Shown: piece after piece, positions 30,694 through 60,595 of the stretch
Numbering within the stretch: position 1 is the first letter of the stretch
Layout of the letters: each line of letters starts with the position of its first letter
Assembly (NCBI GenBank): GCA_963971285.1
Contig: OZ020248.1
Location: 5,146,001-5,210,000, forward strand
Direction: 5' to 3'
Length of the DNA: 64,000 nt
Origin: Astropecten irregularis
Lineage: Eukaryota > Echinodermata > Asteroidea > Paxillosida > Astropectinidae
The notes under the pieces: generated by a model
Told to the model about the DNA's origin: nothing
Database searches by the model: none
Seen by the model: the letters and a program-made list of their open reading frames with translations, nothing else
Translations under genes and position numbers: made by a program

Positions 30694-33502
30694 CAGCGGC
30701 GTAGCTACGGGGGGGCCTGGGGGGGCACGTGCCCCCCCACAAATTCGGCGTGCCCCCCCAGGTGCCCCCCCACAAAAAATCGTGGGTATAGAAGAAAAAA
30801 AAAGCGTTATCTGTAGGGTATGATAGCTATAAAGGAAATAAAAACAACTTAAAGGTGCAGGCTCGTCGATGCTCGACGGACAAAATTCGTGCCACGAAAA
30901 GTCACCTTTGCCCTTGCGGTTGCCAGCTCTTACAATCCCGGAGGGCGAGCGCCAGCTGGTCTAAAAATAACCCTGTACACGCGTATACACTATGCGTGCG
31001 TGCAGTATGCATTGTATTATATTGTACACGATTGATATTGCTGGACGACGCGATGGTTTATGAAGTGGACCCATCCATGCCTGTACATGTACATTGTACA
31101 TAATTATGTACGTAAACTACGTATAGGCCGTTGTGGTATCTGCCCTCGAATTGTCTGCGTTGTGGGATATTTCAGGGAGCAAGAAAAAATCACTCCGTTT
31201 GATAGATTTTAAAACAATTAATGAAATTTTCCATGCTGGCACGTCCACATTCCCGCAGTTTTTGTGAGAAAAAAATCGATTCTAATTTACCGATTGAAAT
31301 CAGACCTAAAAGTAACCAACCACCACCCAGTCGGTACAGCCATGGAGGGTACAGCCACCGCCAGAGAGCAGCAGTAACATATGGACAATGACGAATTGCA
31401 GGAACAATATCCCAAAGTATTCATTATAACCCGACTTGTATGAAAAAAAATACAGCATTGTGTAATTCATTGCAGACCTATATTTTATGTGATATAGGGA
31501 CTAATTTACCAAGTTTGAATTTCACTTTACTCGCATTATACGAGCCCCCACGTTGATATTTAGGCCTACGTCGTTATGGTCATTTTTGTAGAAAGTGAGG
31601 TTTATAATAATAGTATATTAGAAGATAAATACAAGCTGATACACAGATACAGAGACTTGAAACTGAAAGTCACTTCTCATAAAATGAACTGTTTTTTTTA
31701 CTGATAGCATTGAATATACAGTTCATGTACTGTAGTTGTGCACAGCACGCACTGTACATGTACATAATACACAAAACGAATGTCGCCTAGCGACTGTGGC
31801 GCTCTACGCGCACAGAGATTGGCCGAGCGCTGTGCGTATCTAGGTAAACAGTAAACAGTATCTAGGTAAACAGTACGCGCGATGGTCCAATCAGAGAGAT
31901 GTATTTGAATGACGCGGGCCCTGTCATGTCCGCGAACTTGACGAAGTGATTTCACTATGCACACAATGTTTTGTTTACAAAGTATTCTTCAGCGGATTGA
32001 TAGAAAGACGAGTCAAAGCTTGTTTCACTACACTGTATTACAATCATGTACATGTATATGGTACCAATTCACGTACACCTCACATAACCAGTTCAGCATG
32101 AATACGCGCCGTGACAAACGTCAGATTTTGAGAGATTTTCCTTAGGCCTAAAATTCGTAAAATAAGATAGAAACAAACCTCAAAGACGTTCTAGAAAACC
32201 TCCTTTTTACCTAATTTCCTTACATTTCTTTGACATAATTGTCAACATAGTAAATCGATCGTTGATACTTTTCCTATCCAAAAATGCAAAAATCGATGTT
32301 GGAGTAATTTTTGCCGATTCGGCAACTTCAGACGCCGATTACGCGATATCGACAAATTGGGGAATTCATTTCGCTCCATTCACGGTGTCACTTGTCATTC
32401 AAAACCCTGTGCATTCCATAAACCCCAGTAAAGTTCAAGACTTTGAGTTTTTGTGGAAAAACATCAGCATTAGTAAAATAATAGTAATTTATGTCAAACT
32501 CGCACATGTAACAGATTCCCCTATCATATGGGGTTGGGTTAGGCTCTGCCTACAGATCCGCGAAGGATTCCACGATGACAACTGTAAAAAAAATAATGCC
32601 TAATATTGTACTATTTGTACATGTACATGTATTATTATACACCCCGAGTGCATGTACGCAATGCTACACGTGTGTCACGTTAACAGGGGGTGTAACGAGC
32701 CTTCCTAGAACAGCATAACAACATCGATAAAGCTACAGAGGGCGCTATTGTAAAAGTTGCTCTATTTTTTGACGAGCCTGCGCCTTTAACAGCTTTAACT
32801 GTTCCAAAATGATATTTTTTACTTTCAGCAAATGTTCCTGAGTTCTTAAAACCCTATACAGTGAAGAAATCTGTGCAACATTTCAGTGTAAAAATGCAAT
32901 TTTCTTACGCGCTTACGGGAACTTCAAAACAGCCCATCTGCCATTTTGTCTGGTTTGGCTATAGTTAGTCTGGTCCCCAGATTGAATTTCTCCCGCTCAA
33001 GAGTGTTGGATTAAAAAGAAATAATGAAGTAATAATATAATGAATAAATTTATCGGAACAATTGCTTCCAAAATAAGGCTCAGATTGCACCAAAGAATAT
33101 CTAGAACCCCTGAGCTTCCACGGCCCTTAAGCGGGCCCTGGACCCCGGCCGCAAGTCCTTCGCGCTTATCCATGATTTTCCAGGGAGCGTGGAAATAAAA
33201 TGCACCAATTCAACAGCGACGGATGCGTTTCACGGCGATCAAAGCTAGCTAATTTTGTCTCCCCCCCCCTTTTTAAGCTCTTTTGGAGTCTTTCTGTTTC
33301 CCTTTTATTTTATTTTTTTTTCTGTTTTTTTTTTTGTTTTTTGGCTTGAAGAAAAGGCTGCCCCACGCCCGCTGGATCTGCCCCCCCCGCATTTCTCATA
33401 TTTTGCAAATCTCCAGTTTTGAAAAAATTCCGGGTGCCCCCCCACAAAATTCCAAGGCCCCCCCAGTGCCCCCCTGCTGAAAAAATCCTAGCTACGCCGC
33501 TG
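30694..33502. mobile_element. 2.8-kb hAT-like composite transposon, copy 1
   Basis: 2809 bp flanked by a perfect 8-bp duplication GGAATGAG (30686-30693 and 33503-33510). The inverted termini are CAGCGGCGTAGCTA and TAGCTACGCCGCTG, followed inward by G/C-run-rich subterminal DNA. No transposase is recognised, so it needs one supplied in trans. A second, TTAA-bounded element occupies 30853-32785. The whole unit recurs in opposite orientation at 38975-41784. Every translated frame compared between the two copies is identical, so transposition or conversion was recent. Confidence 0.9.
30853..32785. mobile_element. TTAA-bounded 1.93-kb element nested in the hAT-like transposon
   Basis: Flanked by TTAA (30849-30852 and 32786-32789). 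The ends AGGTGCAGGCTCGTC and GACGAGCCTGCGCCT are inverted with one mismatch. The interior has several short frames but nothing I recognise as a transposase. The length is the same (1933 bp) in the second copy at 39693-41625, so it was present before the composite duplicated. Confidence 0.75.
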
Positions 33503-38142: not shown

Positions 38143-38336
38143 TTAAGCAACTTTTTCCTGTTTTACGCAGACAATCATCGCTTACTGCTAAGCAGGGCTA
38201 CTGACAGTACAGCCTTCATTGCCTCTATGGAGATTCTTCTCAAGAACTTGAGCAACAGGAATTAATACACTTTTAAGTAGATTCTGAAAGAGCTTGTACA
38301 TGTAAGTATTGTTTGGGAGAATGAAAATGATCCTAC

Positions 38337-38974
38337 CTCTGATGCATATTCAGGTCGGTTTTCTGTGAAAAGAACTTGCCACAAACATCGCAGGCGAAGG
38401 GCTTTTCTCCAGTATGGACCCGTTGATGCCTAAACATATCCCGTCTCCTGGAGAATGCCTTGTCGCAGAATCCACAAGCAAATGGCTTTTCTCCTGTGTG
38501 AACAGTCTGGTGCTCATTCAAAGAGCCACGGTTAGAAAAAGATTTGCCACAAGTGTCGCAAGTGAGCGGGCTCTTTCTGGTGTGAGTGCTACGGTGCGCG
38601 ATCAAGTAACCTTTGCGTACATAGGTTTTGCCACAAATGTCACAAGCTAACGGGCTCTCTTTAGTGTGGGTGCTGCGGTGCTTGACCAAGACACATCTGT
38701 ATGAAAAAGTTTTGCCACAAATGTCACAAGCAAGCAGCCTCTCTGTGGTGTTGGTGCTATGGTGCTTGACCAAAGAACTTTTCTGTGAAAAGGCCTTGCC
38801 ACAAATGTCGCAGACGAAGGGCTTTTCTCCAGTATGGAGCCGTTGATGCCTTAACAAGTCACCTCGCTGTGTGAAAGATTTACCACATGTGTCGCAAGGG
38901 AATGGTTTCTCACCAGTGTGCAAGCTCTTGTGCTTTAACATATCCCGTCTCCTGGAGAATGCCTTGTCGCAGAG
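38337..38974 (-). pseudogene. ZNF E/F, 3' part of the main exon (seven complete fingers)
   Basis: This is the downstream half of a ZNF exon split by the transposon at 38975-41784. It resumes in the middle of a finger ([19 protein letters not shown]), has seven more fingers and ends ...[25 protein letters not shown] at the normal donor. One finger ends H-X3-N ([12 protein letters not shown]). Alone it has no start; the frame runs back into transposon sequence (...[11 protein letters not shown]). If the transposon and one copy of the 8-bp duplication are ignored, this half is in frame with 41785-45950. Confidence 0.8.
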
Positions 38975-41784
38975 CAGCGGCGTAGCTAGGATTTTTTCAG
39001 CAGGGGGGCACTGGGGGGGCCTTGGAATTTTGTGGGGGGGCACCCGGAATTTTTTCAAAACTGGAGATTTGCAAAATATGAGAAATGCGGGGGGGGCAGA
39101 TCCAGCGGGCGTGGGGCAGCCTTTTCTTCAAGCCAAAAAACAAAAAAAAAAACAGAAAAAAAAATAAAATAAAAGGGAAACAGAAAGACTCCAAAAGAGC
39201 TTAAAAAGGGGGGGGGGAGACAAAATTAGCTAGCTTTGATCGCCGTGAAACGCATCCGTCGCTGTTGAATTGGTGCATTTTATTTCCACGCTCCCTGGAA
39301 AATCATGGATAAGCGCGAAGGACTTGCGGCCGGGGTCCAGGGCCCGCTTAAGGGCCGTGGAAGCTCAGGGGTTCTAGATATTCTTTGGTGCAATCTGAGC
39401 CTTATTTTGGAAGCAATTGTTCCGATAAATTTATTCATTATATTATTACTTCATTATTTCTTTTTAATCCAACACTCTTGAGCGGGAGAAATTCAATCTG
39501 GGGACCAGACTAACTATAGCCAAACCAGACAAAATGGCAGATGGGCTGTTTTGAAGTTCCCGTAAGCGCGTAAGAAAATTGCATTTTTACACTGAAATGT
39601 TGCACAGATTTCTTCACTGTATAGGGTTTTAAGAACTCAGGAACATTTGCTGAAAGTAAAAAATATCATTTTGGAACAGTTAAAGCTGTTAAAGGCGCAG
39701 GCTCGTCAAAAAATAGAGCAACTTTTACAATAGCGCCCTCTGTAGCTTTATCGATGTTGTTATGCTGTTCTAGGAAGGCTCGTTACACCCCCTGTTAACG
39801 TGACACACGTGTAGCATTGCGTACATGCACTCGGGGTGTATAATAATACATGTACATGTACAAATAGTACAATATTAGGCATTATTTTTTTTACAGTTGT
39901 CATCGTGGAATCCTTCGCGGATCTGTAGGCAGAGCCTAACCCAACCCCATATGATAGGGGAATCTGTTACATGTGCGAGTTTGACATAAATTACTATTAT
40001 TTTACTAATGCTGATGTTTTTCCACAAAAACTCAAAGTCTTGAACTTTACTGGGGTTTATGGAATGCACAGGGTTTTGAATGACAAGTGACACCGTGAAT
40101 GGAGCGAAATGAATTCCCCAATTTGTCGATATCGCGTAATCGGCGTCTGAAGTTGCCGAATCGGCAAAAATTACTCCAACATCGATTTTTGCATTTTTGG
40201 ATAGGAAAAGTATCAACGATCGATTTACTATGTTGACAATTATGTCAAAGAAATGTAAGGAAATTAGGTAAAAAGGAGGTTTTCTAGAACGTCTTTGAGG
40301 TTTGTTTCTATCTTATTTTACGAATTTTAGGCCTAAGGAAAATCTCTCAAAATCTGACGTTTGTCACGGCGCGTATTCATGCTGAACTGGTTATGTGAGG
40401 TGTACGTGAATTGGTACCATATACATGTACATGATTGTAATACAGTGTAGTGAAACAAGCTTTGACTCGTCTTTCTATCAATCCGCTGAAGAATACTTTG
40501 TAAACAAAACATTGTGTGCATAGTGAAATCACTTCGTCAAGTTCGCGGACATGACAGGGCCCGCGTCATTCAAATACATCTCTCTGATTGGACCATCGCG
40601 CGTACTGTTTACCTAGATACTGTTTACTGTTTACCTAGATACGCACAGCGCTCGGCCAATCTCTGTGCGCGTAGAGCGCCACAGTCGCTAGGCGACATTC
40701 GTTTTGTGTATTATGTACATGTACAGTGCGTGCTGTGCACAACTACAGTACATGAACTGTATATTCAATGCTATCAGTAAAAAAAACAGTTCATTTTATG
40801 AGAAGTGACTTTCAGTTTCAAGTCTCTGTATCTGTGTATCAGCTTGTATTTATCTTCTAATATACTATTATTATAAACCTCACTTTCTACAAAAATGACC
40901 ATAACGACGTAGGCCTAAATATCAACGTGGGGGCTCGTATAATGCGAGTAAAGTGAAATTCAAACTTGGTAAATTAGTCCCTATATCACATAAAATATAG
41001 GTCTGCAATGAATTACACAATGCTGTATTTTTTTTCATACAAGTCGGGTTATAATGAATACTTTGGGATATTGTTCCTGCAATTCGTCATTGTCCATATG
41101 TTACTGCTGCTCTCTGGCGGTGGCTGTACCCTCCATGGCTGTACCGACTGGGTGGTGGTTGGTTACTTTTAGGTCTGATTTCAATCGGTAAATTAGAATC
41201 GATTTTTTTCTCACAAAAACTGCGGGAATGTGGACGTGCCAGCATGGAAAATTTCATTAATTGTTTTAAAATCTATCAAACGGAGTGATTTTTTCTTGCT
41301 CCCTGAAATATCCCACAACGCAGACAATTCGAGGGCAGATACCACAACGGCCTATACGTAGTTTACGTACATAATTATGTACAATGTACATGTACAGGCA
41401 TGGATGGGTCCACTTCATAAACCATCGCGTCGTCCAGCAATATCAATCGTGTACAATATAATACAATGCATACTGCACGCACGCATAGTGTATACGCGTG
41501 TACAGGGTTATTTTTAGACCAGCTGGCGCTCGCCCTCCGGGATTGTAAGAGCTGGCAACCGCAAGGGCAAAGGTGACTTTTCGTGGCACGAATTTTGTCC
41601 GTCGAGCATCGACGAGCCTGCACCTTTAAGTTGTTTTTATTTCCTTTATAGCTATCATACCCTACAGATAACGCTTTTTTTTTCTTCTATACCCACGATT
41701 TTTTGTGGGGGGGCACCTGGGGGGGCACGCCGAATTTGTGGGGGGGCACGTGCCCCCCCAGGCCCCCCCGTAGCTACGCCGCTG
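38975..41784. mobile_element. 2.8-kb hAT-like composite transposon, copy 2, inside ZNF E/F
   Basis: 2810 bp flanked by a perfect 8-bp duplication TCGCAGAG (38967-38974 and 41785-41792), which is part of the finger codons L-C-D. The ends are CAGCGGCGTAGCTA and TAGCTACGCCGCTG. It is the reverse-oriented twin of 30694-33502, one base longer. The nested TTAA element is at 39693-41625, again 1933 bp. No transposase. The intact duplication and the undamaged ZNF halves point to a recent insertion. Confidence 0.92.
39693..41625. mobile_element. TTAA-bounded element nested in copy 2
   Basis: TTAA lies at 39689-39692 and 41626-41629, with ends AGGCGCAGGCTCGTC and GACGAGCCTGCACCT. It corresponds base for base in length to 30853-32785. 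The short frames it holds (for example 40514-40780 and 39875-40216) are unchanged between copies but resemble no known protein. Confidence 0.75.
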
Positions 41785-41792
41785 TCGCAGAG

Positions 41793-43310
41793 TCCACAAG
41801 CAAATGGCTTCTCTCCTGTGTGAACGGTCTGGTGCTCATTCAAATAACTACGGCGAGAAAAAGATTTGCCACAAGTGTCACAAGCGAGCTCTCTCTCTCT
41901 AGTGTGAGTGCTACGGTGCGCAATCAAGGAACCTTTGTGTACATAGGTTTTGCCACAAATGTCACAAGCTAGCAGGCTCTGTTTATTGTGGGTCGTGTAG
42001 TGCTTGACTAAGGCACATCTGTATGAAAACGTTTTGCCACAAATATTGCAAGGAAGCAGCCTCTCTGTAGTGTTGGTGCTACGGTGCTTGACCAAAGATT
42101 TGTTGTGTGAAAAGGCCTTGCCACAAACGTCGCAGACGAAGGGCTTTTCTCGAGTATGGAGTCGTTGATGCTTTGCCAAGCTACCTCGCTCAGTGAAAGA
42201 TTTACCACATGTGTCGCAAGGGAATGGTTTCTCTCCAGTGTGAACCTTCTGGTGCCTAAACAAATCCCGTCTCCTGGAGAATGCCTTATTGCAGAGTCCA
42301 CAAGCAAATGGCTTCTCTCCTGTGTGAACAGTCCGGTGCTCGTTCAAAGAGCCTCGGTGAGAAAAAGATTTGCCGCAAGTGTCGCAAGCGAACGAGCGAG
42401 CTCTAGTGTGAGTGTTATGGTGCGCAATCAAGGAACCTTTGTGTACATAGGTTTTGCCACAAATGTCACAAGCTAGCGGGCTCTCTTCAGTGTGGGTGCT
42501 GCGGTGCTTGGCTAAGGCACATCTGTATGAAAAGGTTTTGCCACAAATATTGCAAGCAAGCAGCCTCTCTGTAGTGTTGGTGCTACGGTGCTTGACCAAA
42601 GATTTGTTGTGTGAAAAGGCCTTGCCACAAACGTCGCAGACAAAGGGCTTTTCTCGAGTATGGAGCTGTTGATGCTTTACCAAGCTACCTCGCTCCGTGA
42701 AAGATTTACCACATGTGTTGCAAGGGAATGGTTTCTCTCCAGTGTGAACCCTCTGGTGCCTAAACAAATCCCGTCTCCTGGAGAATGCCTTATCGCAGAG
42801 TCTACAAGCAAATGGCTTCTCTCCTGTGTGAACTGTCTGGTGCTCATTCAAAGAGCCACGGTGAGAAAAAGATTTGCTGCAAGTGTCGCAAGCGAACGAG
42901 CGAGCTCTAGTGTGAGTGTTACGGTGCGCAATCAAGGAGCCTTTGTGTACATAGGTTTTGCCACAAATGTCACAAGCTAGCGGGCTCTCTTCAGTGTGGG
43001 TGCTGCGGTGCTTGGCTAAGGCACATCTGTATGAAAAAGTTTTGCCACAAATATTGCAAGCAAGCAGCCTCTCTGTAGTGTTGGTGCTATGGTGCTTGAC
43101 CAAAGATTTGTTGTGTGAAAAGGCCTTGCCACAAACGTCGCAGACAAAGGGCTTTTCTCGAGTATGGAGCCGTTGATGCTTTACCAAGCTACCTCGCTCC
43201 GTGAAAGATTTACCACATGTGTCGCAAGGGAATGGTTTCTCTCCAGTGTGAACCCTCTGGTGCCTAAACAAATCCCGTCTCCTGGAGAATGCCTTATCGC
43301 AGAGTCTACA
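41793..43310 (-). repeat. 504-bp six-finger higher-order repeat
   Basis: Blocks of six 28-residue fingers repeat with a 504-bp period. The order of helix signatures is VHKGSLIA, SHRGSLNE, SRRRDLFR, TERGSLVK, SHNKSLVK and SYRCALAK. Three blocks are nearly identical; a fourth begins here and continues beyond the transposon at 38966-38337, followed by a diverged fifth. Confidence 0.93.
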
Positions 43311-43599
43311 AGCAAATGGCTTCTCTCCTGTGTGAACTGTCTGGTGCTCATTCAAAGAGCCACGGTGAGAAAAAGATTTGCCGCAAGTGTCGCAAGCGAA
43401 CGAGCGAGCTCTAGTGTGAGTGTTACGGTGCGCAATCAAGGAGCCTTTGTGTACATAGGTTTTGCCACAAATGTCACAAGCTAGCGGGCTCTCTTCAGTG
43501 TGGGTGCTGTGGTGCTTGACCAAGGATTTGTTGTTTGAAAAGATTTTGCCACAAATGTCACAAGTGAACGGGTTTTCAGTGGTCTTGGAACTGCTGCAC

Positions 43600-45950
43600 C
43601 TGAAAGCTCCATCAGAAATCTCATCAGTGAACGTCTTCTCTTCAGTCTTCTGATGTTGCATCAAAGGGGTCCCTTGCTTATCAGGATTGTGGCAGTAGTC
43701 GTCAGTATTTCCTTCTGTCTTGGGTACAATCGCTGCTATTTCCATTGCAGAAGCTCCATCAGAAATGTCATCAGCGAACATAATCTCTTCAGTCTTCTGA
43801 TGTTGCATCAAAGAGGTCCCTTGCTTATCAGGATTGTCGCAGTAGTCGTCAGTATTTCCTTCTGTCTTGGGTACAATCGCTGCTATTTCCATTGCAGAAG
43901 CTCCATCGAATATGTCATCAGCGAACATAATCTCTTTAGTCTTCCGATGTTGCATCAAAGAGGTCCCTTGCTTATCAGGATTGTCACAGTAGTCGTCAGC
44001 ATTTCCTTCTGTCTTGGGTACAATCGCTGCTATTTCCATTGCAGAAGCTCCATCGAATATGTCATCAGCGAACATAATCTCTTCAGTCTTCTGATGCTGC
44101 ATCAAAGACGTCCCTTGCTTATCAGAATTGTCGCAGTAGTCGTCAGTATTTCCTTCTGTCTTGGGTACAATCGCTGCTATTTCCATTGCAGAAGCTCCAT
44201 CGGAAATGTCATCAGCGAACATAATCTCTTCAGTCTTCTGATGTTGCATCAAAGAGGTCCCTTGCTTATCAGAATTGTCGCAGTAGTCGTCAGTATTTCC
44301 TTCTGTCTTGGGTACAATCGCTGCTATTTCTATTGCAGAAGCTCCATCGAATATGTCATCAGCAAACATAATCTCTTCAGTCTTCTGATGCTGCATCAAA
44401 GACGTCCCTTGCTTATCAGAATTGTCGCAGTAGTCGTCAGTATTTCCTTCTGTCTTGGGTACAATCGCTGCTATTTCTATTGCAGAAGCTCCATCGAATA
44501 TGTCATCAGCAAACATAATCTCTTCAGTCTTCTGATGCTGCATCAAAGACGTCCCTTGCTTATCAGAATTGTCGCAGTAGTCGTCAGTATTTCCTTCTGT
44601 CTTGGGTACAATCGCTGCTATTTCCGTTGCAGAAGCTCCATCGGAAATGTCATCAGCGAACATAATCTCCTCAGTCTTCTGATGCTGCATCAAAGACGTC
44701 CCTTGCTTATCAGAATTGTCGCAGTAGTCGTCAGTATTTCCTTCTGTCTTGGGTACAATCGCTGCTATTTCCGTTGCAGAAGCTCCATCGGAAATGTCAT
44801 CAGCGAACATAATCTCCTCAGTCTTCTGATGCTGCATCAAAGAGGTCCCTTGCTTATCAGAATTGTCGCAGTAGTCGTCAGTATTTCCTTCTGTCTTGGG
44901 TACAATCGCTGCTATTTCCATTGCAGAAGCTCCATCGGAAATGTCATCAGCGAACATAATCTCCTCAGTCTTCTGATGCTGCATCAAAGACGTCCCTTGC
45001 TTATCAGAATTGTCGCAGTAGTCGTCAGTATTTCCTTCTGTCTTGGGTACAATCGCTGCTATTTCCGTTGCAGAAGCTCCATCGGAAATGTCATCAGCGA
45101 ACATAATCTCTTCAGTCTTCTGATGCTGCATCAAAGAGGTCCCTTGCTTATCAGAATTGTCGCAGTAGTCGTCAGTATTTCCTTCTGTCTTGGGTACAAT
45201 CGCTGCTATTTCCGTTGCAGAAGCTCCATCAGAAATGTCATCAGCGAACATAATCTCCTCAGTCTTCTGATGCTGCATCAAAGAGGTCCCTTGCTTATCA
45301 GAATTGTCGCAGTAGTCGTCAGTATTTCCTTCTGTCTTGGGTACAATCGCTGCTATTTCCGTTGCAGAAGCTCCATCGGAAATGTCATCAGCGAACATAA
45401 TCTCCTCAGTCTTCTGATGCTGCATCAAAGACGTCCCTTGCTTATCAGAATTGTCGCAGTAGTCGTCAGTATTTCCTTCTGTCTTGGGTACAATCGCTGC
45501 TATTTCCATTGCAGAAGCTCCATCAGAAATGTCATCAGCGAACATAATCTCTTCAGTCTTCTGATGCTGCATCAAAGACGTCCCTTGCTTATCAGAATTG
45601 TCGCAGTAGTCGTCAGTATTTCCTTCTGTCTTGGGTACAATCGCTGCTATTTCTATTGCAGAAGCTCCATCGAATATGTCATCAGCGAACATAATCTCTT
45701 CAGTCTTCTGATGCTGCATCAAAGACGTCCCTTGCTTATCAGAATTGTCGCAGTAGTCGTCAGTATTTCCTTCTGTCTTGGGTACAATCGCTGCTATTTC
45801 CATTGCAGAAGCTCCATCGGAAATGTCATCAGCGAACATAATCTCTTCAGTCTTCTGATGTTGCATCAAAGAGGTCCCTTGCTTATCAGAATTGTCGCAG
45901 TAGTCGTCAGTATTTCCTTCTGTCTTGGGTACAATCGCTGTTATTTCCAT
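43600..45950 (-). repeat. 147-bp coding minisatellite, 16 copies
   Basis: Sixteen head-to-tail copies of a 147-bp unit (49 codons); the phase marker TCCATTGCAGAAGCTCCATC recurs at exactly 147-bp steps (for example 43741, 43888, 44035). Inner copies differ by only a few bases (Phe/Ser in DDI[S/F]DGA; Met/Ile/Thr at position 1). The outer copies at the finger side differ more (NPDK for NSDK, EEKTFTDEIS). Gene G has three copies; A, B and H have one. Confidence 0.97.
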
Positions 45951-46185
45951 TGCAGAAGAGTTGTCACAACGTATATAACATAACACAGAGTGTCGCTGCT
46001 ATAACAAACAAGTCGTCAATTATTATATAGTGGCCGTGAGTCGCGACGTTCGCTTCACAGCAAGTTTAAACCACAATGTTCAGCACACAAAAATTTGGAG
46101 ATGTTCGGTGTAGTCAAATATTTAAAACAGCAGTTTCCGTACTGCAATGCCATTTCAATGTTTGGTAATTAGAAGAGTTATTTAC

Positions 46186-46426
46186 TTGCGACACAAACGA
46201 CCTGCCTCACTCATGCTTTCCAGTTTCCACTGAAATATCAACAAATGTTGAAAAGGGCTTCTAACAGACTCAATTAGAGAGTCAACCATTCTTGTGGTGA
46301 CAGTTCAACTTCTGATTGACTTCCATGGCTGCTGAATTCTATCAATCATCATGGTTCCTGTTGATGCAAGGATGAATGTCCGGACAGAGAGATCATCTAA
46401 ATCTAGCTGACAGTCTTGCTATCACT
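46186..46426 (-). other. Candidate 5' leader exon of ZNF E/F
   Basis: On the minus strand the acceptor-like TTTGTTTCAG at 46436-46427 is followed by conserved sequence (AGTGATAGCAAGACTGTCAG...). It ends at a plausible donor, CGCAA|GTAAAT, near 46186. The frame has early stops, so it would be untranslated. The homologous position in the second tandem unit is about 55,100-55,340. No promoter is recognised. Confidence 0.3.
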
Positions 46427-46439
46427 CTGAAACAAATTT

Positions 46440-48011
46440 AAACAGATTACAAAATAAATTGATTTACCGTTATTGTGAGACAAAGATAAAAGAGCAATAT
46501 TCTGGCAAACATTACCACAGAATGAACTGATTTTTATGATAGCAGGCCTACTGCAACAAACCTTATTTCAAATGTAAAATACAACAAACTACTAGTAACA
46601 GTTACTTTTAGGGTACGATACCTATAAAGGGAATAAAAACAACAAGTATAGATTCTAGCCTTCTACTGTTCCAAAATGATATTTTGGACTTTCAGCAACT
46701 TTTCGTCGAGTCCTTAAAACCCCCAGATAGAAGAAATTTGTGCAATTTTGTTACGAGCTTGTTGCCAACTTGAAAACAGTCCGTCTGCCAAGTGCCATTT
46801 TGTCTGGTCTGGCTAGACTAGTTTAGTCTGGTACCTACAACCAACATATCAAAAGTCCACACAATGAGAGCAGAAACTAGACTATGTTCCCATCTTTCCC
46901 GTTTTTACCCCATGATTTCCCTTAAAAATCAAAGCCCTGCTCTCTTTCCACAAATTTAACCTTGCTAATATTCACTGCGTAATTGAAGAGGACACCACGA
47001 AAGTATGGTCAGTGTACCTGTTTTCGAGTTATCAAGTTTTTGAGGGTTGGCCTTCTATACGTCACTGGTAGCAACGTGCAGGCCTGTACTACACAACCAG
47101 TTGATTTGTTTTGTGTAGGCCCAAGGGCCTGTTTGTTTAATGCACAAGATCACGAATCCTACGGATCCCATTTTAGCATAGGACATGGATCCTCAAATCT
47201 GGGATCCTGTGTGTGTCTTTACAAAAAGTGTACCTATTTCGTTACCAATTACCATTTTAATTTCTGGAACAGGCTAAGTCATTTTCACTAATATTACAAA
47301 CACCAGAATATTTGTTAGTTATAAATTATCTCATGTAGAAATAAGTTGTGTCTCATTTCTCCATTTTTTTTTATCCGGTTAGGCAGTATTAAAGGTACAA
47401 TACATGATTGGTAAAGGTCACAGGACTGCACTCATACTTTGTCTGATCAAACATGTACATGAAATAATTATTACTAAACCTGTGAAAATTTGAGCTCAAT
47501 CACACATCTGGGTCACGAGAAAATAGCGAAAATCTGATGCAATTTTTCTTATAAAACATGAAGAATAGTTTACTTTATGTTTGCTCCAAAAATCGTTCGG
47601 ATGAACGATCTTTGGAAAAGACACTAAATCTTGATTTGCTTTAAAAACCCAGGAACTGATGAACCAAGATTTCCCATGGTGACTGTTTGCACTGTTTTCG
47701 AACTGTTGAGTCCATTTTCTGTCTCAAACTCAATTCTTTTTTTTGGAGGCCTTGCAAATCCTATATGCTCCCTTTAAGACAAAAGTTGTATTAAACCGAA
47801 CCAAGGCAAACAACGCAAAAGGCCTAGCCGTTTGTCTGTGGGACTTTCCCTTAAATTAAACGGTTGGAAAGAATTCCACTGATGACCATAATTTGTACAC
47901 AACTCTATGGAACCAACAGAGGGCGTTTGGAGCAAGATGGCTGCCACTATATTGGAAGTGTACAATTTCCAATGCTACCCAAGTTTTCCACACCTGAGAT
48001 TGAAGTTCATC
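46440..48011. other. Non-coding spacer, unit 1
   Basis: No exon is seen. 46,600-46,830 (TGTTCCAAAATGATATTTTG, TTTTGTCTGGTCTGGCTAGA) is related to the inside of the 2.8-kb transposon near 32,800-32,980. 47,147-47,215 is a partial GGGCCTGTTTGTTT element. 47,389-47,774 is bounded by TTAA-like sites but lacks matching ends. Confidence 0.45.
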
Positions 48012-48019
48012 ATAATTTG

Positions 48020-48535
48020 GGGGATTGTGGCTTGACGGGTCCTAAAACTATAAAGGAAAGGAAACTTCTTTTTGAAAAGTAACTTACCTACATATACTTT
48101 GTTGGTCTTCGCCTCTATATTACCAAGGTAAATTTTTTGGAAAGAGGGCAGGGCTTTGATTTTTGAGGGAAATTATGGGGTAAAAACGGTAACCAAGATT
48201 GTAACATTTCACCGCCGCAAGGACGGCCGCACACGAGAATAGTCTGGTTTCCACTCTGACATTTTGAGGACTCTTGATATGTTGGGTCTGGGCACTAGAC
48301 TAACCAGACCAGACAAAATGGCCTCACGCGATCAGACGGTCTGTTTTAATGTTTACAAGAAGCGCGTAAGAAAATTGAATTTTAACCCTGAAATGTTTAA
48401 CAAATTTCTTCAGTTAGGCTTTTAAGGACCCAGGAACATTTGCTGAAAGTCAAAAGTATCCTTTTTGAGGAGTAGAAGTTAGTTCAGAGCCAAAAAAATC
48501 AATGTGTTTTGGGATCCCGTCAACCCACAATCGCC
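48020..48535. mobile_element. hAT-like 516-bp MITE, unit 1 copy
   Basis: A perfect 8-bp duplication ATAATTTG lies at 48012-48019 and 48536-48543. The inverted ends are GGGGATTGTGGCTTGACGGG and CCCGTCAACCCACAATCGCC. Same family as 24680-25196. Confidence 0.88.
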
Positions 48536-49028
48536 ATAATTTGTATCCAATAAGTTAACTCTTGAAGGTATAATCCTTTTTCCGTCATGGTCATCAGTGG
48601 AATTCTTTCCCCACCCATATTTATTTAGCTTCTTCTGTTCCAAAATGAGATTTGTTAATGTTAAGTTAAAGCAAATTTATTCCATTCATGGGTCCTGTAA
48701 ACCCTAACGTTAACTAGGCCTAGGCCTAGTAGTAGTATTAAAAGTCTTAAGTAAAATGAACATATTTCGGCAATATTTCAGTGAAAGAAAACAACAGTTT
48801 CTTACCCAAATAAATACTGGAAATAAAATGGGTGACGTAAAAGACACTAATGCCCACCTTCAAATTAATACATCAGTGAAAATGAACAGAAAAACCAGCA
48901 AATAAAGACTTTACAATCACTGTCAGACTGCGCGTTAATACATTCGCCATATTAAACTAAGCATTAAACTGCGTGTCCAGCTCCAACACTTGGTGGCGCT
49001 ATTTTGGACTGGCAGCTGATATTATTTT

Positions 49029-49157
49029 GGGTGCATTCGTTTAGCTCTCCCGGGTCGACACCAGTCAAACTCGTACCTATTCTCTCGCTCGTTTTGTGCA
49101 GTACAGCACGACCATTCCGTGTAAGGGCTGACCCGTGTTAGCTAAACGAATGCACCC
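49029..49157. mobile_element. MITE with GGGTGCATTCGTTTAGCT ends, unit 1 copy
   Basis: Perfect 18-bp inverted ends (GGGTGCATTCGTTTAGCT / AGCTAAACGAATGCACCC), 129 bp. Matches 33737-33865 and 57971-58099. Confidence 0.8.
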
Positions 49158-49431
49158 TTTGCACCCTGACATAATGATGTGCAAAGTAAATATTGCAATA
49201 CATTAATAAGTGCTACTCATAAAAAATTGCAATCAAGAAAACTTATTCAGTCAAAAGGACCTTGGCTGAATTAGAATGATTCAAATAATGTGAATGATAC
49301 TTATCAAGACTGATTTCTCTCCAGTATCTCTCCCAATACCTCTTGAACATCCAAACCTTCCATCACCAGGCCTATTCAGGGGGGTCTTGGAAGTATGGCC
49401 AGTGCTTAGGACTGGGTCCATCTTTTCTTAA

Positions 49432-49806
49432 AGAGGATGTTCAACACTCAACAAATCTTGCTTTATTTGTTAGAACTATATTCATTAAATTACTTGACAT
49501 GAGAAAAAAATTATCTCACACTGAACACAGAAAGAGAGTCTTTTGATGATTTTTCTCTTAACATATGCTCAACCCTCAAGCTACCCCAAAATTGAAACTG
49601 TCTGAATTTCGCCAATGGGGGTAGCCGGGCAGACAAATCTGTGTGATTTTGTGAGGTCACATTATGGAGCCTTTTCATTAAAACAAAAGGCTCCGTAATG
49701 TAAAAAAAAAAATTAATATTTTTTTTCTCATGTCAACATGTCAAGTAATCTAATGATTATAGTTCTAACAAATAAAGTGAGGTTTGTTGAGTGTTGAACA
49801 TCCTCT
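49432..49806. mobile_element. TTAA-flanked MITE with about 85-bp inverted arms, unit 1 copy
   Basis: TTAA lies at 49428-49431 and 49807-49810. The arms start AGAGGATGTTCAACACTCAA and end TTGAGTGTTGAACATCCTCT, with further pairing through TTTGTTAGAACTATA and ACTTGACATGAGAAA. The centre contains GGAGCCTTTTCATTAAAACA then AAAGGCTCC, a smaller hairpin. Confidence 0.85.
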
Positions 49807-50237
49807 TTAAGGCAATGGCCTGTGTTCATGATCATGTTTTTATTTAGATTTTACCTTAATCTACTATTCAACAAAACCAAACAGAAATAAACGACCAAAC
49901 ACAAACAAGCAATTACCACAAACAAACAGATGGACAAACAAGCAAACAAACAACAAAATGAATACACAATCCGGTTTCAAAATGTCTGTCTTCCACTTTT
50001 TTAATGACTTTATTGCATAGTGGAAATATCAAAACTTCTCTACAACAAATGCGTTGTGAATATTACACTGTAAACATAAACAGGTGTATTGACAGGTGTA
50101 ATCTTATCGTCAAAGAGCATCTTTGCAATGAGCAAAGTTTAATGAGCAGTGAGCTGTTTGAAACAATTCATTACTTGCACTGATGGAATGGTATAATATT
50201 CAAGACGGCCAGAATTCTCCTTGTTTGCACTGTGCAA

Positions 50238-50540
50238 TGGGAGACTTTTGGAGAGTCGTTCTTGAGTCAACAGCGCACGCACGCGCAATACAACGCGCGC
50301 ATGCTCACAATTGCCCAAACATGGTTTGACTCAAGACTCTCCAAGGCTGCGTTCGAGCGGTTACTCCCGGTAACACGAGTGTGATGCGCGCACGATACTC
50401 TCTGGTGCAGGAGCATACTCCCCGACGCTGGAGAGTATACTCTCGCTGACCCGAGTGTCGTACTCCGGCCGTTCGAGAGTTCAGGAGTAAACTCGTGTTA
50501 ACACGAGTAGCTCGCTCGAACGCAGCCTAAAAGTCTCCCA
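50238..50540. mobile_element. MITE (TGGGAGACTTTTGGAGAG) hosting a second MITE, unit 1
   Basis: The outer ends TGGGAGACTTTTGGAGAGTC and GACTCTCC...AAGTCTCCCA are inverted. The inner element 50345-50527 starts GGCTGCGTTCGAGCGGTTAC and ends GCTCGAACGCAGCC. It is full of ACTCGTGTTA/TAACACGAGT and GAGTATACTC palindromes. The outer family occurs without the inner one at 10805. Confidence 0.75.
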
Positions 50541-50561
50541 TTGATGCAATCAAACTGATCT

Positions 50562-50697
50562 GGGGTCAATTTCACAGAGCCCATGCCATCGATCATTACA
50601 AAGAATAAGCCATATATTGTACCCTACGTAGGGCTGTAATGCATCATAAGTCCTATGATTGATAGTAAGTTACGATGAGTTTGGTGAAATCGACCCC
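50562..50697. repeat. Hairpin repeat (GGGGTCAATTTCACAGAGCC), unit 1
   Basis: The ends GGGGTCAATTTCACAGAGCC and GTTTGGTGAAATCGACCCC are inverted. Related to 35338-35467 and identical in layout to 59509-59642. Confidence 0.55.
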
Positions 50698-50756
50698 TAG
50701 TCACAGACAGTGAGACAGGTTTTGATATTTAAATTCCACTCAAGCAAAATAATTTA

Positions 50757-51400
50757 TCTCAAGTGTGGGTCCGGTGGTGATTCATCAATGAACTTATTGT
50801 AAGTTGGTTGAAAAGTCTGAAATAAATAAATAAACGACCAAATGATAAAGATGGTCATACAGCAAGTGCAGGGTACATTGTTGGACAATAATATTAGGGA
50901 GAAAACTTAGGGCCCATTTGTTTAACCTACAGGATCCCAGATCTGCGGATCCATGTCCTATGCAGGGTAAGCTAAAATGGTATCCGGACCAGTGGGATCC
51001 GGATCAGTATGATCCGATCCGTGATCTCGTGCGTTAAACAAACAGGCCCATAAATACTGGTAAGGCTATGCCATTGAAAAGCCCTGCCCACTGTGGCTAG
51101 ACCCAGGCTTACTGGCTCAAAAACCTTCCATTTGTTATCCCTGAACCTCAGTACCAAAGAGCTGCTTAAAATCGCAATAAAGCTTGAATTATGGATACTC
51201 TCCATGATCAACGTGGACTTAATCTGTCAATCATGTGATCCAGGTCACAGCAGGGGCTTGAAGTTGATAGTTCAAGGCTAGGGATTATAGAAACCCAAGA
51301 CCCAAGTAAAAAGCCCAGGCCTAGCTTGGCCTGGCTTTTCAGTGGCTGGGCCCAACAAGTGAATGGTCTCTCTCCTACGCGGCCATTTCTCCACATCATG
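50757..51400 (-). pseudogene. Scattered ZNF finger relics, unit 1
   Basis: Minus-strand finger scraps only: SLMNHHRTHT-like DNA at about 50,757-50,800 and a linker/finger fragment at about 51,355-51,420 (AGTGAATGGTCTCTCTCCTA). They correspond to the relic at 36,180-36,420. No usable frame. Confidence 0.45.
50910..51049. mobile_element. GGGCCCATTTGTTTAAC MITE, unit 1
   Basis: About 140 bp with inverted ends GGGCCCATTTGTTTAACCTA / GCGTTAAACAAACAGGCCC. The interior is dense in GGATCC, GATCCGG and ATGATCC. It is the short, uninterrupted relative of 24601-25255. Confidence 0.7.
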
Positions 51401-51581
51401 ATGGATGATGCTAATGCATAAAGATGTCAAAATAAACGGGAAACAGTTAATACAAGCATAATTAGCATATACTGTAGTGTCTGTGCAAATGTTATCAAGC
51501 AGTAATAAAACTAACAAATAAGCAAAATGGAAATTGGCTGGATTGATTTTTAAGTCATTGAAAAGTGAAAAAGAAAAATTG

Positions 51582-51645
51582 ACTGGAGGGGGATTCGAAC
51601 CAGCGACAGTGTGCCGGTACTCTACCAACAGTGCTATCCAGCCAT
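51582..51645 (-). mobile_element. tRNA-derived SINE, unit 1
   Basis: Minus strand: GGATAGCACTGTTGGTAGAG, then a good B box GGTTCGAATCC, then CAGTCAATTTTTCTTTTTCA. The head is shorter than a full tRNA. Identical layout at 60,531-60,595. Confidence 0.6.
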
Positions 51646-52197
51646 ATGTTTGAAGTGCCCCTAATACCAGTCAATTATCTTTGTTCATTTGGGGGTGTAA
51701 ATTTTTCTTTGTTCACTCTTCAATTACTAGAAATAAAACTATTGGGACTGAAAGATATAAAAATGCATGAAATTTTCCAAATACTGGTATGTCTCTAAAT
51801 TATTGACTTACAATCCAACATCTGAAGACTTTTATGGCTAGTTTAGGGCACTGCAAATTTATGGTTTAAAACACGTTGCTTTATAACAACAATATTGGTT
51901 CTCACAAGAGCCCAATCCATCATGCACACAAGAGCCCAATCCATCATGCACATAGGCAGCTGGAAAATAAGACATTCTGTTAACTTTGACAGAAATGTGA
52001 GGTTGTTTGTCTTTTTACATGTTTAATATTTTGGGAGGCTAATCATCTTTACCTGCAGCTGGGGTGCTAAATTGCAAAGGATGCGACTTCAACGTGATCG
52101 AGTTGCAGGCTTTCATGGGCGCCCCTTGGCTGCCAGCCACATCAACCCATATATGATCACGGAGTACAGCCTGAGATCGAAAGTGTTTAATTTTTGT

Positions 52198-52358
52198 GGA
52201 GGGAGGAAAACCAGTGAACCCGGAGAAAAACCCTCGTAGCATGGGAGAAGAACCAACGCACAACTCTACTCACATGATGACTGAGCCCGGAATCGAACCC
52301 GGGCCACATTGCTTTGGTGAGAGGCGAGTGCCTAACACAATTGTCACCTATGCCACCC
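52198..52358 (-). mobile_element. tRNA-type SINE with conserved core, unit 1
   Basis: Minus strand: the head GGTGGCATAGGTGACAATTG with a strong B box (GGGTTCGATTCC) is followed by a body with CGAGGGTTTTTCTCCGGGTT and GGTTTTCCTCCC. That core resembles the deeply conserved SINE domains described in marine metazoans (I think of the Nin type; from memory, unverified). The copy in unit 2 is at 61,151-61,311. Confidence 0.6.
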
Positions 52359-52520
52359 ATATACTGGTGACGTTCTGAGCCTACTAGCTCAGAGGAAGAT
52401 AAAAGGCATGGTTACGCATGACTCTCAATTCGGCAAGTAATATCAAGTACCCCCGGTAAACGACAAACTGACTCCAGAAAAAAGAAATGGAAAGAATATT
52501 CAACCGCACCTGTCCATGAT

Positions 52521-54864
52521 CTAAACAGAATCATCTTCCTGGATCACAGAACTGGTAGACTGCTCTGGTGATAAGCTGGGTGGCTTGCATACTGGCCTTC
52601 TGTAAAGGGGGAAATTCAAGAAAACTGCACGGTTAGATCTGTTAAAACCCGCAAAGAAATAAAGACACCTCTCCTTTGGCAAAAGTTGGCAAACAGAGAA
52701 ATGGAAATGTTCAATTGAAGGGGGGGGGGGAATTTCATGGAGCAGTTTGTAATAATGCTGATTTTTTCCTTTAATGATAGATTTTCAGATTAAATCCCTG
52801 CTCAACCTTCAACCATAAGTACAGAAAAACTATGCTTAACCGACACCAATTGCTTAAATGAAGTTAAAATCTTATCTATGACACAACAATGCAAATCACC
52901 AAATGCATGGAAGCAATATGTGAAATACGTTTTATCTGCTTTTCTTCAACTAAGCAATATTTTGTTTACTGCTAAGCAGGGCTACTGACAGACAGTGTAG
53001 TCTTCATTGCCTCTATGAAGTTTCTTCCGATGAAATTCGGCTCAGAAACTAATACACAGATTCTGAAAGAGCTACCAGTAGTCATGTTTGGGGAGGGTGG
53101 CTGGTATAATTTAGTGGAATGAAAATGATCCTACCTCTGATGCATATTCAGGACGAATTTCTGTGAAAACGACTTGCCACAAACGTCACAGACGAAGGGC
53201 TTTTCTCCAGTATGGACATATTGATGCCTTACCAAGTCACATCGTTGAGCGAAAGATTTACCACATGTGTCACAGGGGAACGGTTTCTCTCCAGTGTGAA
53301 AGCTCATGTGCCTAAACAAATCCCCTCTCCGTGAGAAAGCCTTGTCGCAGAGTCCACAAGCAAATGGCTTCTCTCCTGTGTGAACGGTCTGGTGCAATGT
53401 CAAACTACGTCTCTGGGAGAATGCCTTATCGCAGAGTCCACAAGCAAATGGCTTCTCTCCTGTGTGAACGGTTTGATGTAATGTCAAACTACGTCTCGAG
53501 GTGAAAGCCTTGTCGCAGAGTCCACAAGCAAATGGCTTCTCTCCTGTGTGAACGGTCTGGTGCAATGTCAAATTACATCTCTGGGAGAATGCTTTGTTGC
53601 AGAGTCTACAAGCATATGGCTTCTCTCCTGTGTGAACGGTCTGATGCAATTTCAAAGAGCCACGGTGAGAAAAAGATTTGCCACAAGTTTCACAAAGGAA
53701 TGGCTTCTCTCCAGTGTGGGTGCTACCATGCGAGACCAAGTAACTTTTCTGTGAAAAGGTTTTGCCACAGATGTCACAAGTGAACGGCTTCTCTCCAGTG
53801 TGGGTGGTAAGGTGCTTGGCCAGGGAATGCTTGTTTGAAAAGGTTTTGCCACAAATGTCACAAGAGAGCAGGCTCTCTCTAGTGTGAGTGCTACGGTGGT
53901 TTAACAAGGAACCTTTGTGTAAATAGGTTTTGCCACAAATGTCACAAGCTAATGGGCTCTCTTCAGTGTGGGTGCTGCGGTGCTTGACCAAGGCACATCT
54001 GCATGAAAAAGTTTTGCCACAAATGTTGCAAGCGAGCAGCCTCTCTGTAGTGTTGGTGCGACGGTGCTTGACAAAAGAACTTTTGCGTGCAAAGATTTTG
54101 CCACAAATGTCGCAAGTGATCGGGCTCTCTCTAGTGTGGATTTTAAGGTGCCTTAGCAAGGTACATCTGTGTGAAAAGCTTTTGCCACAAGTGTCACAAA
54201 TGAACAGCTTGTCTTTAGTGTGCGTGCTACTATGTGAAACCAAGTGACATTTGCGTGAAAACGTTTTGCCACAAATGTCACAAGCGAATGGCCTCTCTCC
54301 AGTGTGGATCGTATGGTGCCTGGCTAGGGAACTTTTGTATGAAAAGCTTTTGCCACAAATGTCACAAGCGAATGGCCTCTCTCCAGTGTGGATCGTATGG
54401 TGCTTGGCTAGGGAACTTTTGAGTGAAAACGTTTTGCCACAAATGTCACAAGCATACGACGTCTTCTCTTCGGTTTGTATTCTCTGATGTTGAATCAAAG
54501 AGGTCCCTTGCTTATCAGGATTGTCGTCAGCATATCCTTCTGTTTCGGGTACTATCGCTGCTATTTCCATTGCAGAAGCTCCATCGGAAATGTCATCAGC
54601 GAACATTATCTCTTCAGTCTTCTGATGTTGCATCAAAGAGGTCCCTTGCTTATCAGAATTGTCGCAGTAGTCGTCAGTATTTCCTTCTGTCTTGGGTACA
54701 ATCGCTGCTATTTCCATTGCAGAAGCTCCATCGGAAATGTCATCAGCGAACATAATCTCCTCAGTCTTCTGATGCTGCATCAAAGAGGTCCCTTGCTTAT
54801 CAGAATTGTCGCAGTAGTCGTCAGTATTTCCTTCTGTCTTGGGTACAATCGCTGTTATTTCCAT
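52521..54864 (-). CDS. C2H2 zinc-finger protein, paralogue G (two coding exons)
   Basis: The main coding exon is 54864-53135 and the last exon 52599-52521, about 602 residues. It starts at the conserved [16 protein letters not shown]; the frame above it to the acceptor near 54,913 has no ATG. Three N-terminal modules follow: two of the 49-residue form nearly identical to the first copies in E/F, and a shortened third ([20 protein letters not shown]). From about residue 140 there are 16 fingers, most with TGEKPF linkers. Finger 5 ends H-X3-N ([12 protein letters not shown]). The last finger ([18 protein letters not shown]) is split by the 535-bp intron and would be completed as C2HC by the Cys of RPVCKP. 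The 5' end matches E/F and the 3' end matches H, so it looks like an unequal-crossover fusion. Probably functional. Confidence 0.88.
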
Positions 54865-56964
54865 TGCAGAAGAGTTGTCACAACGTATATAACATAACAC
54901 AGAGTGTCGCTGCTATAACAAACAAGTCGTCAATTATTATATAGTGGCCGTGAGTCGCGACGTTCGCTTCACAGCAAGTTTAAACCACAATGTTCAGCAC
55001 ACAAAAATTTGGAGATGTTCGATGTAGTCAAATATTTAAAACAGCAGTTTCCGTACTGCAATGCCATTTCAATGTTTGGTAGTTAAAAGAGTTATTTACT
55101 TGCGACACAAACGACCTGCCTCACTCATGCTTTCCAGTTTCCACCGTAATATCAAAAAATGTTGAAAAGGGCTTCTAACAGATTCAATTAGCAAGCCAAC
55201 CATTCTTGTGGTGACAGTTCAACTTCTGATTCACTTCCATGGCTGCTGAATTCTATCAATCATCATGGTTCCTGTTGATGCAAGGATGAATGTCTGGACT
55301 GAGAGATCATCTAAATCTAGCTGACGGTCTTGCTATCACTCTGAAACAAATTGAAACAGATTACAAAATAAATTGATTTACCGTTATTGTGAGACAAAGA
55401 TAAAAGAGCAATATTCTGGCAAACATTACCACAGAATGAACTGATTTTTATGAGAGCAGGCCTACTGCAACAAACCTTATTTCAAATGTAAAATACAACA
55501 AACTACTAGTAACAGTTACTTTTAGGGTACGATACCTATAAAGGGAATAAAAACAACAAGTATAGATTCTAGCCTTCTACTGTTCCAAAATGATATTTTG
55601 GACTTTCAGCAACTTTTCGTCGAGTCCTTAAAACCCCCAGATAGAAGAAATTTGTGCAATTTTGTTACGAGCTTGTTGCCAACTTGAAAACAGTCCGTCT
55701 GCCAAGTGCCATTTTGTCTGGTCTGGCTAGACTAGTTTAGTCTGGTACCTACAACCAACATATCAAAAGTCCACACAATGAGAGCAGAAACTAGACTATG
55801 TTCCCATCTTTCCCGTTTTTACCCCATGATTTCCCTTAAAAATCAAAGCCCTGCTCTCTTTCCACAAATTTAACCTTGCTTATATTCACTGCGTAATTGA
55901 AGAGGACACCACGAAAGTATGGTCAGTGTACCTGTTTTCGAGTTATCAAGTTTTTGAGGGTTGGCCTTCTATACGTCACTGGTAGCAACGTGCAGGCCTG
56001 TACTAAACAACCAGTTGATTTGTTTTGTGTAGGCCCAAGGGCCTGTTTGTTTAATGCACAAGATCACGAATCCTACAGATCCCATTTTAGCATAGGACAT
56101 GGATCCTCAAATCTGGGATCCTGTGTGTGTCTTTACAAAAAGTGTACCTATTTCGTTACCAATTACCATTTTAATTTCTGGAACAGGCTAAGTCATTTTC
56201 ACTAATATTACAAACACCAGAATATTTTTTAGTTATAAATTATCTCATGTAGAAATAAGTTGTGTCTCATTTCTCCATTTTTTTTTATCCGGTTAGGCAG
56301 TATTAAAGGTACAATACATGATTGGTAAAGGTCACAGGACTGCACTCATACTTTGTCTGATCAAACATGTACATGAAATAATTATTAATAAACCTGTGAA
56401 AATTTGAGCTCAATCAGACATCTGGGTCACGAGAAAATAGCGAAAATCTGATGCGATTTTTCTTATAAAACATGAAGAATAGTTTACTTTATGTTTGCTC
56501 CAAAAATCGTTCGGATGAACGATCTTTGGAAAAGACACTAAATCTTGATTTGCTTTAAAAACCCAGGAACTGATGAACCAAGATTTCCCATGGTGACTGT
56601 TTGCACTGTTTTCGAACTGTTGAGTCCATTCTCTGTCTCAAACTCAATAATTTTTTTTGGAGGCCTTGCAAATCCTATATGCTCCCTTTAAGACAAAAGT
56701 TGTATTAAACCGAACCAAGGCAAACAACGCAAAAGGCCTAGCCGTTTGTCTGTGGGACTTTCCCTTAAAACGGTTAGAAAGAATTCCACTGATGACCATA
56801 ATTTGTACACAACTCTATGGAACCAACAGAGGGCGTTTGGAGCAAGATGGCTGCCACTATATTGGAAGTGTACAATTTATAGGTAAAAAAAACCCTGTAA
56901 AACTCACTTTTCAGATATGCTACCCAAGTTTTCCACACCTGAGATTGAAGTTCATCATAATTTG

Positions 56965-57480
56965 GGGGATTGTGGCTTGACGGGTCCTAAAACTATAAAG
57001 GAAAGGAAACTTCTATTTGAAAAGTAACTTACCTACATATACTTTGTTGGTCTCCTCCTCTATATTACCAAGGTTAATTTTTTGGAAAGAGGGCAGGGCT
57101 TTGATTTTTGAGGGAAATTATGGGGTAAAAACGGTAACCAAGATTGTTACATTTCACCGCCGCACGGACGGGCGCACACGAGAATAGTCTGGTTTCCACT
57201 CTGACATTTTGAGGACTCTTGATATGTTGGGTCTGGGCACTAGACTAACCAGACCAGACAAAATGGCCTCACGCGATCAGACGGTCTGTTTTAAAGTTTA
57301 CAAGAAGCGCGTAAGAAAATTGAATTTTAACCCTGAAATGTGTAACAAATTTCTTCAGTTAGGCTTTTAAGGACCCAGGAACATTTGCTGAAAGTCAAAA
57401 GTATCCTTTTTGAGGAGTAGAAGTTAGTTCAGAGCCAAAAAAATCAATGTGTTTTGGGATCCCGTCAACCCACAATCGCC
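56965..57480. mobile_element. hAT-like 516-bp MITE, unit 2 copy
   Basis: Same 8-bp duplication ATAATTTG (56957-56964 and 57481-57488) as the copy at 48020, so it was copied with the unit and not by transposition. Confidence 0.88.
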
Positions 57481-59487: not shown

Positions 59488-59508
59488 TTGATGCAATCAA
59501 ACTGATCT

Positions 59509-60530: not shown

Positions 60531-60595
60531 ACTGGAGGGGGATTCGAACCAGCGACAGTGTGCCAGTACTCTACCAACAGTGCTATCCAGCCATA
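60531..60595 (-). mobile_element. tRNA-derived SINE, unit 2 copy
   Basis: Counterpart of 51582-51645; the B box GGTTCGAATCC is intact. Confidence 0.6.

Follow-up and report, generated by a model that had tools for sequence, protein, structure and literature searches.

The 16 tandem units of 49 residues at the front of a zinc-finger gene of the starfish Astropecten irregularis are likely to be a coding minisatellite that grew out of the front end of the gene itself and that now forms a tolerated or mildly constrained acidic tail. Judged from its sequence, each unit is a short native N-terminus (~16 aa) followed by a decayed C2H2 finger and the first part of another, an identification based on finger-profile scores, on the genome matches of a 96-residue query, and on the gapless alignment of the copy in a neighboring gene, H, with a finger consensus.

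The window, i.e., the whole stretch of 64,000 nucleotides that was analyzed (C11:5146001-5210000 of an assembly of 475.7 Mb in 168 contigs), contains a zinc-finger gene cluster whose members, A, B, C, D, E/F, G, and H, are all encoded on the minus strand. The module is present in 16 copies in F, in three copies in G, the third of which is short and H-like, and in a single copy in A, B, D, and H, while C carries one damaged copy. The initial annotation had counted 16 copies for E/F, three for G, and one for A, B, and H; these counts stand, with the correction that the third copy of G is a unit of 38 residues resembling that of H, and the copies of D and C (the damaged one) had been missed. The module copies and related stretches are the following.

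15169..15315, minus strand: single module of gene A
17443..17592, minus strand: single module of gene B, with one extra codon
19085..19213, minus strand: damaged module of gene C, with a 5-base insertion directly after ATGGA that shifts the frame at the start codon
29271..29417, minus strand: single module of gene D
29130..29276, minus strand: decayed fingers 2-3 of gene D
43599..45950, minus strand: array of gene E/F, 16 in-frame units arranged head-to-tail, each 147 bp (49 aa) long and together 784 aa
43599..43745, minus strand: unit 16 of the array, the edge unit beside the fingers, with a single-copy-type end, EEKTFTDEISDGAFR
54457..54864, minus strand: gene G, two full amplified-type units (54718-54864 and 54571-54717) and a third, shorter, H-like unit
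63778..63930, minus strand: single module of gene H, with the full finger spacing kept
15637-15783, 17842-17988, 36217-36363, and 59590-59736, minus strand: remnants of fingers that lie outside the main frames

A and B contain stretches similar to the decayed fingers 2-3 of D, and inspection by eye shows such a stretch in C too. The fingers of C are still open despite the insertion after its ATG, and this gene may start further downstream or may be a pseudogene. The four finger remnants may be what is left of additional genes in the cluster. When the upstream regions of the cluster genes were aligned, a possible splice acceptor, TTTGTTATAG, was seen in A, B, F, and G, together with a six-base insertion in C, and was absent from D and H.

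The window has several other features. Two minisatellites with a 16-bp unit, CAACTCGGTCCGTGAC, at 23362-23547 (~11.7 copies) and 24182-24351 (~10.7 copies), are reverse complements of each other, lie ~630 bp apart, and are perhaps the ends of a mobile element. A nested minisatellite of ~1.3 kb on ACTGGGGGAACTAC-like units, with several frames open, occupies 8203-9477, and a tRNA-Gln (TTG) gene lies at 10455-10529 on the minus strand.

That a 147-bp coding unit is repeated 16 times in frame in E/F, as initially annotated, was confirmed. Tandem Repeats Finder reported positions 43604-45958 with a period of 147, 16.0 copies, 97% matches, and 0% indels, and the array lies in a single frame without stops (41655-45998, 1447 aa), in which the register of the start codon puts the units at 45950 down to 43599 of the minus strand. 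The first unit begins at 45950 with the probable start codon, an ATG that aligns with those of A, B, D, G, and H. An ATG at the unit start is kept in eight of the 16 units (1, 2, 4, 8, and 13-16), so that shorter products are conceivable, on a speculative footing.

Units 1-15 differ from one another at 0-11 of the 147 bases (mean 4.70, 3.2%), and unit 16, which adjoins the fingers, differs from them at 12-20 bases. The end of unit 16 is of the type found in the single-copy genes (EEKTFT..ISDGAFR), where units 1-15 read EIMFADDI(S/F)DGASA. Identical units are not adjacent (2 is identical to 13, and 7 to 9), and the variants at nine informative sites are shuffled among the units, both of which would be expected if units had been exchanged and converted. 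The array is hence what is called a coding minisatellite, with an in-frame tandem unit in the range of tens to hundreds of bases and reshuffled variants. Its amplification had been described as recent and continuing, which is only partly borne out; the mean divergence of the inner units, at 3.2%, exceeds the 1.28% that separates the two copies of the F/G segmental duplication described below.

Similarity to fingers was scored with an independent profile of 70 finger pairs taken from four places on other contigs, which were picked by a finger query and not by the module. With this profile, the module of H reached 20.0 bits, D 13.3, A 12.6, B 10.2, F unit 16 8.8, the third unit of G 8.1, and F unit 4 7.7, and for each of these seven modules none of 2000 shuffles scored as high. 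An earlier profile of 44 pairs (loci L054-L059) had given 27.4 bits for H and 18.0 for D, down to 11.9 for F unit 4, with no shuffle as high among 2000, except one for F unit 16; these values are biased upward, since the six loci had been fetched as weak matches of the module itself. The finger-homology result thus held on repetition with the 70-pair profile, at lower scores. With a profile of the cluster's own fingers, shuffles as high per 2000 numbered none for H, B, F unit 4, and the third unit of G, one each for D and A, and six for F unit 16, and two-unit queries were matched by eight (F units 15-16) and three (F units 4-5) of 1000 shuffles. At the DNA level, all seven module queries scored above all of 500 dinucleotide shuffles.

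Among the 49-mers of the window outside genes (n = 1959, stops read as X), two to four reached the score of a module with the 70-pair profile, all of them belonging to the top four, which by eye resemble finger remnants; two to nine did so with the 44-pair profile. The decayed fingers 2-3 of D scored 17.6 bits with the 70-pair profile (0 of 2000 shuffles as high), and those of A and B were equaled by three of 2000 shuffles each (0 of 2000 with the 44-pair profile).

The module of H aligned with the consensus of the finger profile without gaps; the alignment of F unit 4 to the biased 44-pair profile was poor, with a gap of 28 columns. By eye, the C18-x12-H31 spacing of a finger is kept in the units of A, D, H, and F. 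The first zinc ligand, a Cys, is replaced by Asp at residue 15 in A, B, D, F, and H (alignment positions by eye), the second Cys (C18) is kept except in the third unit of G, where it is lost, and the first His is kept. The second His is Leu in H and Gln in the third unit of G, its place in A, B, D, and F is within a gap of two residues, and the Cys pair of the next finger is Asp and Ser in H. A hand alignment had equated the Cys of the unit with the first Cys of a finger; this was ruled out, as the profile alignments place it on the second. The unit lacks the canonically spaced pairs of Cys and His that a working C2H2 finger has, and its similarity to fingers goes beyond composition, as expected of descent from one. 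The third unit of G (38 residues, with HQRIQTEEKTS) is joined directly, in finger phase, to the intact finger YACDICGK, so that a dead linker (TEEKTS) leads into an intact finger (YACDIC).

Pfam found no finger (E ≤ 1) in a single unit or in the 84-aa N-terminus of A, and the unit resembles a new domain because the decayed finger goes undetected in a single copy. The query with H gave a sub-threshold match to SAB (E 0.0029, 18.1 bits, cut-off 27), and the query with the array plus fingers gave two sub-threshold matches in the array, DUF3147 (E 0.097) and zf-C2H2_14 (E 0.43). None of the effector domains KRAB, SCAN, BTB, and ZAD was found at E ≤ 1 in the four queries. The unit had been taken for an effector-type domain; what it holds instead is homology to C2H2 fingers from about residue 16 onwards, with no known effector in Pfam.

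E and F, listed as ZNF E/F in the initial annotation, are in fact a single gene split by a 2.8-kb transposon.

38333..38974, minus strand: gene E, the 3' part of gene F past the transposon, with the remaining fingers up to the stop
38975..41784: hAT-like element of 2810 bp within a finger of E/F, with 14-bp terminal inverted repeats, CAGCGGCGTAGCTA, and an 8-bp target duplication, CTCTGCGA
30694..33502: second copy of the hAT-like element, in the opposite orientation, with target duplication GGAATGAG
41785..43598, minus strand: first 21 finger repeats of E/F, at a spacing of 28 aa, by a pattern that allows Asn as the last His

The two copies of the element are 99.96% identical (one gap and no mismatches in 2810 columns). 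The duplication of 8 bp of target sequence is the rule for hAT transposons, and it was found at both copies (CTCTGCGA and GGAATGAG). The element resembles hAT transposons in this duplication and in its short terminal inverted repeats and differs from them in that no long frame was seen in it, the longest listed one being 145 aa; it is probably non-autonomous.

Ahead of the cut, 21 fingers were counted when Asn was allowed as the last His and 18 under a stricter pattern. They form six-finger blocks of 504 bp (94.3% identity at an offset of 504), and the presence of such blocks in the fingers next to the unit array makes it appear that tail and fingers were both multiplied by recombination. The frame of E/F, once its flanks are joined at the empty site, is open over 1599 aa. 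In its present state it ends inside the element, so that the predicted protein consists of the 784-aa tail and the 21 finger repeats before the cut.

A transposon inside a finger, a neighbor (C) with a damaged start, and four finger remnants nearby are what would be expected of a decaying, non-functional locus, with drift in both array and fingers and a transposon that only completed the loss of the gene. We consider this rather unlikely, as the frame is open for 1447 aa up to the element and for 1599 aa when the flanks are joined, which leaves the cut as the sole lesion seen in the coding frame, and as seven of the 15 array variants are synonymous.

The description of the unit as acidic and N-terminal was borne out, with a net charge of -8 for unit 4 and of -122 for the array (174 acidic and 52 basic residues in 784 aa). 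A structure model of one unit had a pLDDT of 60.7, a low confidence that is based on only nine closely similar sequences and is hardly evidence of disorder. The pN/pS ratio was 0.18 within the array, pooled over pairs that are not independent, and 0.44, pooled, between paralogues. The distinct array variants comprise seven synonymous and eight replacement changes (P 0.07 against neutral), and none is a stop, which is expected by chance 65% of the time. These ratios and variant counts leave room for real constraint on the unit.

The first idea about the array was that of an acidic segment of the activation or condensate type, whose copy number tunes the recruitment of partners, i.e., a selected multivalent effector. 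The acidic unit is indeed kept in frame in several paralogues, and the array pN/pS of 0.18 is compatible with selection of this kind. In addition, the amplified units read IMFA where the single-copy units have KTFT or KTFA, a change that adds hydrophobic residues among acidic ones, and units 1 and 16 of F differ by 10 replacement and two synonymous changes, part of which is accounted for by the junction. However, 16 copies are present in only one gene, which is itself cut by a transposon that this idea left aside, Pfam finds no known effector domain, and most of the unit is a dead finger, which makes a selected multivalent effector clearly unlikely. A further version, in which dead fingers would have been recycled into a dose-tunable acidic effector through the gain from KTFT to IMFA, multiplication together with their own start codon, and graded tails from the eight of 16 starts, is very unlikely.

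A DNA search of the genome with the unit gave at least 24 matches, all within the window, and so did a protein search with a 57-aa module query (at least 24 matches at E ≤ 2.8e-9), which is a composite, so that its identities refer to the composite. Six weak matches of this query outside the window (E 1.7-3.0), with frames read to 260 aa, are C2H2 arrays, and distant module copies outside the cluster were ruled out on this ground. Residues 1-96 of D gave 115 matches. Of these, 24 are the module places of the cluster and one is a remnant; the other 90 (E 2.7e-6 to 0.0088) lie in finger arrays of the cluster (10) or elsewhere (80). Among these 90, 61 begin at residues 12-18 of the query and mostly run to ~96, i.e., over three finger lengths, and two begin before residue 12. 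The six loci that were read are all C2H2 arrays, many of the rest coincide with places found by the finger query, and a large part of the score of the 90 matches probably derives from residues 49-96.

That the module might be an unrelated N-terminal domain, like FiNZ or KRAB, with a likeness to fingers that arose by chance, is highly improbable and on these comparisons appears largely refuted. Its best ground is the very front of the module, as the first 18 residues of D obtained no score from the finger profiles and only two of the 90 outside matches begin before residue 12, to which can be added that a single unit is not called a finger by Pfam. The profile and DNA tests against shuffles contradict it, as do the 90 further matches, most of about three finger lengths, the in-phase passage from module to finger in G, and the full finger spacing in H.

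The mitochondrial contig of the assembly carries a COX1 that, read with the echinoderm code, has the expected conserved residues, and its ND1 and ND2 lie on the strand opposite to COX1, as in sea stars, which marks the genome as that of an echinoderm and probably of a sea star. Two further COX1-like sequences were also noted in the assembly. C25:9951047-9952018 (L062) is COX1-like with seven TGA codons, lies far inside a large contig, and is a probable nuclear copy of mitochondrial DNA; C131:32162-33484 (L060) is a COX1 match with a 552-aa frame free of internal stops, perhaps from a bacterial contig in the assembly.

An assembly artefact, with copy number inflated or units misassembled, is barely credible: the array was judged from the assembly alone, but it measures only 2.35 kb, which is short for long reads, its units carry distinct combinations of variants, and units of the amplified type are present in G as well.

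A coding minisatellite derived from the gene's own front end also agrees with the junctions. All 15 inner junctions of the array read GGAGCTTCTGCA, the sequence of its 5' flank is AACTCTTCTGCA, and that at the end of unit 16 is GGAGCTTTCAGG; as CTT is common to the flank and the end of unit 16, one founding duplication over a three-base match can explain all junctions. Amplified-type units are found in both F and G, and the MEITAIV variant in unit 1 is common to both, which points to an array of two or more units before the F/G duplication. This tandem segmental duplication has two copies, which differ at 96 of 7500 compared bases (1.28%; 25 alignment rows, with 88 gap columns set aside).

45869..53393: copy 1, with the start of F, the F-G spacer, and the 3' end of G
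54783..62345: copy 2, with the start of G, the G-H spacer, and the 3' end of H

From the array, its similarity to fingers, the common junction, the segmental duplication, and the transposon cut, all of them present in the window, we infer an order of events. In the ancestor of the cluster, the first fingers would have lost their zinc ligands and TGEKP linkers, and what remained would be the native N-terminus of ~16 aa and dead fingers, an acidic tail that is probably unfolded and without a canonical zinc site. A single tandem duplication, in the lineage leading to E/F, would then have linked a position shortly 5' of the start codon with one within dead finger 2; the founding unit, at 147 bp, would have been in frame and would have carried its own ATG. 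Unequal exchange and conversion could have raised the number of units to 16, much as fingers multiply in such genes, and the fingers of the same gene would have grown in six-finger blocks. A later exchange or duplication may have given G its N-terminus, and the 16-copy gene was interrupted, presumably afterwards, by the hAT-like element among its fingers. What most likely results is a DNA-binding protein with many fingers and a long acidic tail, and this tail would be tolerated or under mild constraint, probably near-neutral in its consequence, and not a selected multivalent effector.

This history suggests a simple route to a new N-terminal region in zinc-finger proteins, in which fingers that have died at the protein's front end turn into an acidic tail, and this tail is amplified by the same recombination as the fingers. 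It bears on the origin of lineage-specific N-terminal "domains" in clustered zinc-finger genes and corrects the effector-domain reading of the array, since a "domain" that Pfam does not see can be a decayed copy of its neighbor. Amplification of a dead finger together with a start codon was not found in the portions seen of the open literature on zinc-finger N-terminal repeats, degenerate fingers, and the echinoderm C2H2 expansion.

Degenerate fingers are known within zinc-finger clusters, for example, in the human KRAB-ZNF cluster at 8q24.3 (PMC2865497), where, in the part of that account consulted, fingers lacking ligands persist in otherwise intact proteins of a tandem cluster, as they do here. 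Those are individual degenerate fingers, whereas in E/F a dead finger and the start-codon region together make up a tandem unit of 16 copies. PRDM9 offers a coding minisatellite in a zinc-finger gene (PMC3890296), and both it and E/F have an in-frame tandem repeat with reshuffled variant units. The repeat of PRDM9 is a functional finger, while that of E/F lies at the N-terminus and has an incomplete set of zinc ligands. The FiNZ domain of cyprinid fishes, according to the passages seen of its description (PMC10547256), has 28 aa, lies on its own exon upstream of the finger exon, and occurs in 684 zebrafish genes; FiNZ-ZNF proteins resemble those of the present cluster in having a short acidic N-terminus with no similarity to known domains and in being encoded by clustered genes. 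Unlike FiNZ, the unit of E/F shares one frame with the fingers, would be of finger origin, is confined to one small cluster, and has been amplified.
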